A stretch of 64,000 bases of DNA from positions 1 to 64,000 of the forward strand of contig SVFM01000014.1 in NCBI GenBank assembly GCA_015056865.1. Reading direction: 5' to 3'. Positions 12,166 through 45,911 of this stretch are shown here, piece after piece (the stretch's first letter is position 1; every line of letters starts with the position of its first letter). A model generated the notes under the pieces. The model saw only the letters and a list, made by a program, of their open reading frames with translations. It did not search any database and had not been told where the DNA came from. Source of the DNA: Lachnospiraceae bacterium (GTDB lineage: Bacteria; Bacillota; Clostridia; Lachnospirales; Lachnospiraceae). The position numbers were made by a program, and so were the translations under genes.

Positions 12166-12179
12166 ATTTTTATCGGACA

Positions 12180-12397
12180 GAGCGTGCAGGCCTACCTCCG
12201 GGCGCAGAGGCTTTTGGAGCGGGGGATCCGTCTCAATGACGGACCCTTGAAAAACGCCGGCGCTTAATGAGTTCAGGTGCAGTACTGCACCACGAGTTTA
12301 GCGTCCCCTGCGTTCTTTCACGGAGCGAGAGCGTGTCCGAATGAGACGGATCCCCCGCTCCAAAATCCTCTGCGCCCGGAGGTAGGCCTGCACGCTC
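12180..12397 (+). repeat. Dispersed palindromic element, copy A
   Basis: Outer arms 12180-12235 and 12342-12397 are complementary over 56 nt with one mismatch; inner core shared with copies B and C; central perfect palindrome GGTGCAGTACTGCACC (12276-12291). Confidence 0.9.
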
Positions 12398-12446
12398 TTT
12401 TCGGTAAAAATAATTCAAATAGATGGTATAACAGGAGGAAAACAGT

Positions 12447-14270: not shown

Positions 14271-14295
14271 AATCAAAGCAATATGGAAATATTAG

Positions 14296-14527
14296 CAGGT
14301 AGATTATCTGATATCAATCAGGAGTGATCTGTTTGTGTCTCCCTACAGAGGATAGGGTACAATTACGGACCCTTGAAAGACGTTGGCGCTTGGCGAGGTC
14401 AGCCTTCGGCCCGAGCCTAGCGTCCACTACGTTCTTTCACGGAGCGAAAGCGGGTCCGTCACTGTACCACATCCTCTGCAGGCGGGGATGAATGGACCAT
14501 TCCTGACTGATATTAGATAACTACCTG
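14296..14527 (+). repeat. Dispersed palindromic element, copy B
   Basis: Outer arms CAGGTAGATTATCTGATATCAATCAGGAGT (14296-14325) versus reverse complement of ATTCCTGACTGATATTAGATAACTACCTG; inner core GGACCCTTGAAAGACGTTGGCGCTT...AGCGTCCACTACGTTCTTTCACGGAGCGAAAGCGGGTCCG. Confidence 0.85.
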
Positions 14528-14554
14528 TTATTTTTATGTGAAAGGAAGACTATG

Positions 14555-21487: not shown

Positions 21488-21621
21488 ATGATTATCCTCC
21501 TATCATATAATGTGTAGTATTTTGTCCGTTCGTCCGGACGACATCCATGAGGGAATACCTCAAACTTTGTTAATTATATATCAATTTCCATGAGAATGCA
21601 ATAGTAATATATAAAAACTGT

Positions 21622-21817
21622 GAAATAAGAGACTGGGGGTTAGGACACAGGAGGCACGCCTCATTCGGACACGCTTTCGCTCCGTGAAAGGATGTAATGG
21701 ACGCTAAATTCGAGGCAAAATGTCTACATTTTGCCTGACCTCATTAAGCGCCAACGCCTTTCAAGGGTCCTTCATTGAGGCGTGCCTCCTGTGCCCTACC
21801 CCCCGGCCTCCTATTTC
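21622..21817 (-). repeat. Dispersed palindromic element, copy C (core reversed relative to A/B)
   Basis: Arms TAGGACACAGGAGGCACGCCTCA versus reverse complement of TGAGGCGTGCCTCCTGTGCCCTA; core on minus strand GGACCCTTGAAAGGCGTTGGCGCTTAATGAG...AGCGTCCATTACATCCTTTCACGGAGCGAAAGCGTGTCCG. Confidence 0.9.
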
Positions 21818-21895
21818 TTAAATTTTTATGATACATATCAAAAGGAGAGCAGCTGTGATATAATGGAGAAAAGTTTCAAGAGTGAAGGATGAGGT

Positions 21896-28608: not shown

Positions 28609-28649
28609 TTTATAGAATAATAAACCAATCATGTGGGTAAACTAATTTC

Positions 28650-28846
28650 AGATGTGTACGCCCCGGGTGATTTCGAAGGCCAAAGGACTGGGTGCAGGGC
28701 CAAAGGAAGGCACTTGATTTTTCAAGCATTTATGCGCAGAAAAATCTTAGTACCGCTGCGTTTTTCACGGAGTGAGAACGTGCCTGAGCCGCTCCCTTTT
28801 GCCCCGCGCCTTTGTCTTATGACTTATGAAAACACCCCGAGTGCGA
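28650..28846 (+). repeat. Diverged copy D of the dispersed palindromic element
   Basis: Core CCGCTGCGTTTTTCACGGAGTGAGAACGTGCC aligns with CCCTGCGTTCTTTCACGGAGCGAGAGCGTGTCC of copy A; flanking arms partly complementary. Ends approximate. Confidence 0.6.
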
Positions 28847-28868
28847 GGACATCGGAAAGGAGACCTAC

Positions 28869-43593: not shown

Positions 43594-44958
43594 ATGAAGA
43601 AGGCCTTGATTTTGTGCATTATTCTGGTGATTTTGTCGGGAACTTTGGTGGTGTCAGCGGCCGGACTGGTTGACAAGGAAAAAGAGAGCATAGTGATTAC
43701 CCAGCAAACTCTGCGGGGGGACCAGCAGGCAGCAGAAGGATGGCAGCTGGAGACAGTGAGTCATTGCGGATATAAACTGAATTGGACGACTACCTTTGCT
43801 GCTGATGATACAGGTGCAGCGACTACGGTGTTTTGTTTTAAGCCTGAGGGAGAGTTCACACGGCCGGTTGACCGGAAGGACGAAGTCACTTTGTATACAG
43901 AGACCGGATTTGGCGTCGGCGGGAACGTTAACTTGAGCGGTGTGGCGCACAGTGATGTATTCAGAGAGATAGCACAGCGCACTTCGGCAGGGGAGACAAG
44001 GACAGAACAAATTTCTCTGGAAGACTATTATACCTATTACCCTCTTACCCTGACCCTGGACGGAAAATATATTCTGGACATAAGAGCTTTTGATGAGGTT
44101 GAGGAGAGTAAGGCGTTGCAGGACGTGATACAGATCCCAGTGCATTCTCAGGAAAAGCTGGAAATGTCGGTCAGCAAGAATAAGGACGGTCAGATCGTAT
44201 CTATCGAATGTAATTCTGTGGATGGGTGGATGGAGACCAATACCCATGGCGTGTTTCCAGAAGAAGGCTGCTACTTTGTGTGTACTCCGACCTATTGGGA
44301 CGGAGAGGCCACAACTCACATTGCAGGCGCCCAAAATGCTATTTACTATATGCCTATCCGTTTGACGCAAAGCAGGGAGATGGTGGGCTTTGACCAGATC
44401 TTTAAGGTGTATGAACTGCAGGAGGATTGTATTGCAGTGGATATGCAGATGGACCAGGCGGGCAATCTGCTGTTGCTTACCAAAGAAAATGACCTGTTGG
44501 TACTGAATGTATATGAACCTTTGGAACAAGAGGGTGAACTGAAAAAGCTTCATACAACGGAACTTATTCCCATGGAGGAAGACTATTATGACCGAATGAC
44601 AATGACTCAGGGCAGTACATTGATCACCTTGAGTAGCGGTGCCTTTTGTCTGCTGACATCCCAAGGGAAGGGGGATTATGAAGTTACACTGCGTGGGAAG
44701 TTAGATCCGGACGGGGAATTGTGCAAGCATTTGCTGGAATACGAAACCTTTGCTTATGATGGAAAGCGTCTTGCAATAGCCTCTTATGAAGCTGGGGGAT
44801 TGCCTGATAACAGCATTTATCTGGCTGTTTACGGGGAGAAGGGACTGGAGTACGTAGGTTTTTACCATCATAGTGGAGATCTGAGCAGCAGTGGATCGGA
44901 TTGGTATCTGCTCATGGGCTATCGAAACAAAGAAAATTTGAAGTTGTGGAAGGAATAA
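43594..44958 (+). CDS. Secreted/exported protein of unknown function linked to ABC exporter
   Basis: Signal peptide MKKALILCIILVILSGTLVVSAAG; no recognised domain. Confidence 0.55.
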   Translation: MKKALILCIILVILSGTLVVSAAGLVDKEKESIVITQQTLRGDQQAAEGWQLETVSHCGYKLNWTTTFAADDTGAATTVFCFKPEGEFTRPVDRKDEVTLYTETGFGVGGNVNLSGVAHSDVFREIAQRTSAGETRTEQISLEDYYTYYPLTLTLDGKYILDIRAFDEVEESKALQDVIQIPVHSQEKLEMSVSKNKDGQIVSIECNSVDGWMETNTHGVFPEEGCYFVCTPTYWDGEATTHIAGAQNAIYYMPIRLTQSREMVGFDQIFKVYELQEDCIAVDMQMDQAGNLLLLTKENDLLVLNVYEPLEQEGELKKLHTTELIPMEEDYYDRMTMTQGSTLITLSSGAFCLLTSQGKGDYEVTLRGKLDPDGELCKHLLEYETFAYDGKRLAIASYEAGGLPDNSIYLAVYGEKGLEYVGFYHHSGDLSSSGSDWYLLMGYRNKENLKLWKE

Positions 44959-44964
44959 TTGAGA

Positions 44965-45027
44965 GGCTGGCGCCTTGGAATAAAAGCGGGCCTCTGGCGC
45001 CCCAGCTTTTATTCCAAAGCGCCGGCC
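44965..45027. terminator. Long bidirectional hairpin between convergent genes
   Basis: GGCTGGCGCCTTGGAATAAAAGC ... GCTTTTATTCCAAAGCGCCGGCC, 23-nt arms with few mismatches. Confidence 0.7.
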
Positions 45028-45029
45028 GC

Positions 45030-45911
45030 TTAATGTTTTATCAGTTTAAAATTACCGTAGGTCTCATTTACACTCTCGCAGAAAGAGAAGGTGTTGTCGT
45101 ACTTGTCGATGATGTTCTTAAAATCTACAATCTGATGTTTATTTACCACGCACAATAAAACGGTTTTAGAGGAGTTGGTGTAGGCGCCCTGAGCTTCTAT
45201 TTTTGTGGCACCGTGCTTTAAAATATGAGTCAAGTCTTCCGAAATCTGGTTTGGGTGTGTGGTGATCACTGTGAATTTATAGGCAGTTTTTGCACCTTGG
45301 ATAATGTAGTTTCCTACAAAATTGGACACAAAGCAATAGGTAATACAAAGGGCCACCGGCTTATAGTCCAGAAAGCCCTGATCTGAGTACACTAACAGGG
45401 ATACGCCTGCGATGATGGCATTGAGGATAAAGGTAACCATGAAAAAATTGGTATTTGGCCGTATTTTGTTGATGTATTTTGAGACCAGTTCCATTCCGCC
45501 GCTGGCAGAATGGTATTTCAGGCAGATGCCACTGACAAAGCCACTGATGACCCCGCTTATAATGGCAGGAAATATGGTGTCATGTCCCTGGGCATCGTAC
45601 TTTAGCTGCTCCAGCCCCATCTGTTGCAGAAGAAGGTAGGAAAAAGAATAAATCAAAGTAAATATCAGGGATTTTACCGCATATTTTTTCTCTACAAGAA
45701 AGTAGGCCAGGACACAGAGCGGAATGTTGATGAGGATCGACATATAGCTGATACTGAATCCGGTTTTGTATTGTATCATGGTGGCGATACCGTTCAGGCC
45801 TGCCGGTGCAAAATTGTTAACCACAATAAAAATGTGATAGTTGAAGGCCAATAGTAAAGCCATTAAAATAATGATTATGTAGGAAAAAGCGCCTTTTGAT
45901 AATTTTTTCAT
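45030..45911 (-). CDS. YitT family membrane protein (DUF161/DUF2179)
   Basis: FNYHIFIVVNNFAPAGLNGIATMIQYKTGFSISYMSILINIPL; C-terminal DUF2179. Confidence 0.85.
   Translation of the reverse strand: MKKLSKGAFSYIIIILMALLLAFNYHIFIVVNNFAPAGLNGIATMIQYKTGFSISYMSILINIPLCVLAYFLVEKKYAVKSLIFTLIYSFSYLLLQQMGLEQLKYDAQGHDTIFPAIISGVISGFVSGICLKYHSASGGMELVSKYINKIRPNTNFFMVTFILNAIIAGVSLLVYSDQGFLDYKPVALCITYCFVSNFVGNYIIQGAKTAYKFTVITTHPNQISEDLTHILKHGATKIEAQGAYTNSSKTVLLCVVNKHQIVDFKNIIDKYDNTFSFCESVNETYGNFKLIKH

Follow-up and report, generated by a model that had tools for sequence, protein, structure and literature searches.

Copies of the element in the window

The window, a stretch of 64,000 nucleotides from the genome of a Lachnospiraceae bacterium (G000), contained three strong copies of a palindromic element, A, B and C, and a degenerate copy, D. 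All of them were intergenic, as an earlier note on this DNA had stated, and they adjoined genes for RidA, shikimate kinase, EamA, SpoVAEB, Fe-ADH, a solute-binding protein and a YdcZ exporter. Copy A, a type 1 element on the plus strand, spanned positions 12166..12411, and its 100-nt conserved core (12241..12340) was flanked by a left arm (12166..12235) and a right arm (12342..12411), which were specific to the locus and formed an inverted repeat. The arms were 70 nt each and 94% complementary, and the 56-nt arms with one mismatch described in the earlier note fell within them. Folded as single-stranded DNA, copy A reached -108 kcal/mol (z = -18), and none of 200 shuffled sequences folded as well. 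Copy B, also type 1 and on the plus strand, occupied about 14293..14530 with partly decayed arms and a core at 14367..14459. Copy C (type 1, about 21611..21829, core at 21665..21770) had arms that were 82% complementary and lay on the minus strand, in agreement with the inversion reported earlier.

A covariance model, R1, was built from 32 cores and recovered copies B, C and D. The cores of A, B and C scored 89.4, 92.3 and 87.3 bits, respectively, and the consensus that the earlier note gave for these three close copies was retained unchanged. The fourth copy that it listed was a weak relative: the core of copy D (28697..28787, plus strand, degenerate and type-2-like) scored 45.6 bits (E 1.3e-10) versus 87-92 for the others, and its arms, with approximate outer limits at 28619..28868, were decayed. 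Across the whole genome, BLAST showed 33 core matches (that of copy A and 32 further ones), the 19-mer at the 3' end of the core occurred 29 times versus 0 for the reversed control, and R1 detected about 59 copies, few of them with decayed cores. These results confirmed that the palindromic repeats are real and beyond chance. A different inverted repeat, with 33-nt arms (85% complementary) and an 11-nt loop, was located at 44958-45034 of the window and did not belong to the R1 family.

Architecture of the core

From the outside inwards, the element consisted of a locus-specific outer arm, an arm of about 20-50 bp, P1, and then P2 and P3. The core formed a three-way junction of P1, P2 and the small GNRA hairpin P3, enclosed by the long complementary arms. 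P1 paired RGAC with GTCY. The coaxial P2 began with CCTTGAAA.../...TTTCACGG, followed by the covarying segment ACGYYRG/CYRNNACGT, and continued through CACTTRGC/GCYTAGTG with a T.T mismatch into a variable apical stem. P3 (GC-GNRA-GC) was located on the 3' side of the junction, and its loop was GNRA in 96 of the 99 copies. Two subtypes were found in G000. Among 47 loci of other genomes, standard pairs filled 93% of the pair cells, versus 30-46% in slid controls. Covariation over these loci was strong, with a score of 0.466 versus 0.155 for shuffled alignments (reached in 0 of 500), and 23 of the 26 core pairs varied on both sides, which extended the tracking of inner pairs between copies seen in the window.

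Many Lachnospiraceae also carried the apical hairpin CACTTRGC-GAGGT-N5-CGA-GCYTAGTG by itself (L141, L144, L172, L191, L197, L200 and others), frequently as a tandem pair of hairpins next to a TATAAT box; L141 was a 101-bp tandem array. These lone hairpins may form a repeat family of their own or represent a protein-binding motif that is shared.

Distribution in the Lachnospiraceae

Searches of related genomes yielded many further copies. R1 matched 24 of 61 relatives and, in a sample of 200 genomes from across the Lachnospiraceae, 78 (77 of 199 genera), and no match was found in 24 other families of the order. Copy number reached about 67 per genome. The relatives were mostly draft genomes, and some contigs of G151 had R1 matches 8-31 bp from a contig end; near-identical recent copies coincided with assembly breaks, and the copy numbers of draft genomes are therefore probably too low. 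The named records in a pattern scan were almost all Lachnospiraceae (Acetatifactor, Butyrivibrio, Roseburia, Dorea, Eisenbergiella and others), and about half of the scanned loci matched R1. The sole non-Firmicute title, Dongia deserti (L182), did not match R1 and is probably a chance match. No match to the core was found on plasmids or phages. Rfam, searched in both gathering and E-value mode, returned no family, in keeping with the earlier statement that this is not a named Rfam family, and no element of such a kind was found for Lachnospiraceae in the literature searched.

Two further arrangements were observed. Divergent pairs about 200-350 bp apart were common in G017 and G027 (loci L090-L098). 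Composite elements of about 480-500 bp (L298-L304 in G006 and L447-L452 in G115) combined an R1 hairpin with a second long hairpin; their ends were inverted (TAAATTGAAAGTTAGT... and TAAACTGTAG...), several copies were near-identical, and no obvious gene was seen in them.

Insertion as a unit and target sites

The earlier note proposed comparing empty with occupied orthologous sites, and empty sites were readily found. The element was absent from all 28 of the orthologous RidA upstream regions examined in the genus at the site of copy A, and the position of copy B in the relative G081 measured 65 nt instead of 276 nt. In the sister species pair G073/G034, all five of the G073 copies examined were missing from G034, and neither arm was present at the empty sites. 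The arms and the core were thus missing together, and the element inserts as a unit. Presence and copy number varied even between close relatives.

The ends of the element were resolved in G032 as CAATGTCATTTAG...CTAAATGACATTG, about 186 bp. Direct repeats of 8-11 bp were present at both ends of copies L377, L381 and L108, and direct repeats of at least 8 at matched distance were found in 17% of cases versus 1% in controls; two more target duplications (L415 and L419) were read by eye. Each of these five duplications coincided with the loop of a host intrinsic terminator, also assigned by eye, as in AAAAGGGC-[GACGCAAGT]-GGCCCTTTTT and AAAATCGGTCA-[CACCGGTG]-TGACCGATTTT, in which the bracketed part is the repeat. 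A host inverted repeat flanked 12 of 25 G032 copies versus 7% in controls. In at least this one relative, the element therefore inserts into the apex of intrinsic-terminator hairpins with a target duplication of 8-11 bp. Target duplications in G000 showed no excess over the control, and the pairing signal there weakened gradually with distance from the core and was nil by about 80 nt, as expected of older insertions.

Concerted change of the arms and inversion of the core

The arms differed between copies yet stayed complementary within each copy. In G017, the arms were bounded by a conserved foot (CAGCCG / CGGCGTGAC) on one side and the conserved core on the other and are therefore internal to the element. 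At least two Watson-Crick pair types occurred in 20 of the 24 arm columns, and about 500 letter pairs included 11 G.T, 16 A.C and 9 other non-pairs; when arms were swapped between copies, Watson-Crick pairing fell from 89% to 65%. Pairs of copies showed the same pattern, with cores 96.5% and arms 56% identical in L111/L117, and cores 98.6% and arms 57.5% identical in L106/L108. In the young G151 family, L444 and L446 differed at 1 of 91 core bases and at 11 arm positions where both sides had changed, with transversions at five of them. Other G151 pairs, such as L437/L438 with an unchanged core, differed by arm changes that were not compensated, which fits decay after insertion.

Orthologous sites in G031 and G084 revealed several outcomes: the arms had compensated changes in L067/L280, the core was inverted between shared arms in L288/L285, and the arms were kept in L312/L276. 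The core can thus occur inverted between conserved arms. A possible further inversion was seen between L432 (G081) and L026 (G000), but the arms of these two were unrelated and L432 may be an independent insertion.

Template switching is known to homogenise the arms of inverted repeats and to invert spacers (PMC8604942, PMC8794818), and the element shared with those cases the paired multi-base arm changes and the spacer inversion. The published cases concern short inverted repeats that lie mainly within genes or RNA genes, whereas the element formed a dispersed family with arms of 40-70 bp. We infer that template switching between the arms best explains both the concerted arms and the core inversion. 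Two other sources of the arms were rejected as general explanations. A pre-existing terminator loop could not be the only source of all arms, since the empty G034 sites lacked both arms and the G017 arms varied within the stretch from conserved foot to conserved core; a terminator origin applied solely to the outermost host stems of G032. Inverted duplication of the host flank was seen at only one of five sites (L287, 19 of 21 matches).

In a variant of the mobile-element account, the element would be a self-templating hairpin transposon: one arm would be synthesised on the other at replication or insertion, so that arm sequence could vary freely as the structure is passed on, and a putative enzyme would read the core and insert into hairpin apices such as terminators. 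We consider this variant conceivable but doubtful. Changes in the core were far rarer than changes in the arms, so the core is constrained, and the constraint may come from transposition, a cellular role or conversion between copies. A domesticated chromosomal role at the DNA level, for example in protein binding or as a nucleoid site, with purifying selection acting on the core locus by locus and mobility long past, would agree with this difference in rates, with the scarcity of decayed cores in G000 and with the three G031/G084 sites, whose cores were 83-94% identical while some arms turned over. However, the variable presence and copy number among close relatives and the inconsistent gene context argue against it, and conversion between cores could yield the same pattern; such a role appears unlikely.

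Pairing at the level of DNA or RNA

The earlier note had offered three roles for the element: a structured RNA, a processing or terminator element, or a fold-back (MITE-like) mobile element. The last of these was favoured by the empty orthologous sites, the target duplications in a relative and the dispersal of copies in every orientation, and the first two were not supported. Mechanical ORF calls placed 17 copies in ++, 11 in --, 10 in -+ and 10 in +- gene contexts, so there was no orientation bias relative to genes; by the same calls, 10 of 49 copies lay between divergent genes, and the copies had no consistent place downstream of genes. A one-way terminator or cis-regulator was rejected for the lack of orientation bias. 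Terminators were linked to the element in another way, since in G032 they were its insertion target rather than its role.

A functional structured RNA, with either a regulatory or a processed transcript, that multiplied and whose pairing was kept by selection on the transcript would account for the strong covariation and for the GNRA tetraloop of P3. The covariation is, however, shared with a DNA-level explanation, and loops of the GNRA type can be stable in single-stranded DNA as well. Counted without a positive control from known RNAs of these genomes, the non-Watson-Crick pairs comprised 119 G.T versus 99 A.C in the arms and 12 G.U versus 12 A.C and 12 versus 14 in P2, with no G.U excess on either strand, and the four P1 pairs alone leaned to G.U (15 versus 3). 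Because G.T and A.C intermediates were equally rare, the pairing seems to be maintained in the DNA itself, and along most of the element neither strand shows signs of selection as RNA. The occurrence in every gene context and both orientations and the empty sites in close relatives also spoke against a transcript-level role. The element behaves as mobile DNA rather than as a cis-acting RNA, and a functional structured RNA is quite improbable.

Candidate enzymes and related systems

Neither of two candidate transposases tracked copy number. The Y1 (HUH) transposase was not found in three copy-rich genomes, G005, G012 and G017 (73-87% complete), although G000 carried a single intact IS200-like Y1 gene (G000:C4:7531-7887, L349). 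The IS4-type DDE_Tnp_1 was not found in G073 (99% complete), G012 or G005, and no autonomous parent with the G032 ends was found in G032 (85% complete). IS231-type elements of the IS4 family target palindromic GGG-N5-CCC sites and generate duplications of 10-12 bp. The element resembled them in its symmetric palindromic target and in a duplication centred on the dyad; an IS4/IS231-derived MITE was nevertheless rejected, as DDE_Tnp_1 was not found in G073, G012 or G005.

Target duplications are not expected for the single-stranded mechanism of Y1/HUH enzymes. REP-like elements moved as single-stranded DNA by a RAYT-type transposase would be palindromic and intergenic, with conserved feet, a hairpin core and frequent head-to-head pairs, all seen here alongside the Y1 gene of G000, yet this origin is highly improbable given the 8-11 bp duplications, the three copy-rich but incomplete genomes in which Y1 was not found, and units of 190-250 bp, 5-10 times longer than the 20-40 bp of REPs (PMC3733652). 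REP/BIME palindromes do share the compensatory stem variation (PMC3733652), and some feet of the element read GCGTC or GCGTG, where REPs carry a GTAG or CGTC tag, but size and structure differed.

Bacterial MITEs such as QMITE2 and Chunjie (reviewed in PMC10969869) were closer. Like them, the element was short, non-coding, intergenic, multi-copy (about 59 copies in G000) and bounded by inverted repeats, with mobility evident from empty orthologous sites and target duplications in young copies, as in the five G032 copies. Unlike them, it had hypervariable yet self-complementary arms, a conserved three-way-junction core and, in G032, a terminator-apex target, and no parental insertion sequence with its ends was found in that incomplete genome.

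Discussion

Taken together, the element is probably a non-autonomous, MITE-like mobile DNA of about 190-250 bp, a single long imperfect palindrome whose arms are kept matched by template switching. A transposase acting in trans would cut palindromic targets symmetrically and would recognise the ends of the element, the hairpin core or both. Template switching within the palindrome during replication would then copy one arm from the other, which would maintain the match between the arms even as their sequence drifts and would sometimes flip the core. The outermost, locus-specific arm may in part consist of the stem of a host terminator or of host flank copied in inverted orientation. Three points stand against this account: the mobilising enzyme was not found among the Y1 and DDE_Tnp_1 candidates, target duplications were clear only in G032, and the core is far better conserved than the arms, which under pure mobile-element decay would need activity, selection or conversion.

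The element was previously unlisted, and it is present in about 40% of the sampled genomes of the Lachnospiraceae, a family of gut bacteria that ranks among the best studied. The arms record, naturally and on a large scale, how palindromes change in concert: the changes are paired, include transversions and show no G.U preference, and intermediates changed on a single side are few. They also caution that covariation alone is no proof of a functional RNA. The element lends itself to tests of template switching and of insertion into terminator hairpins.
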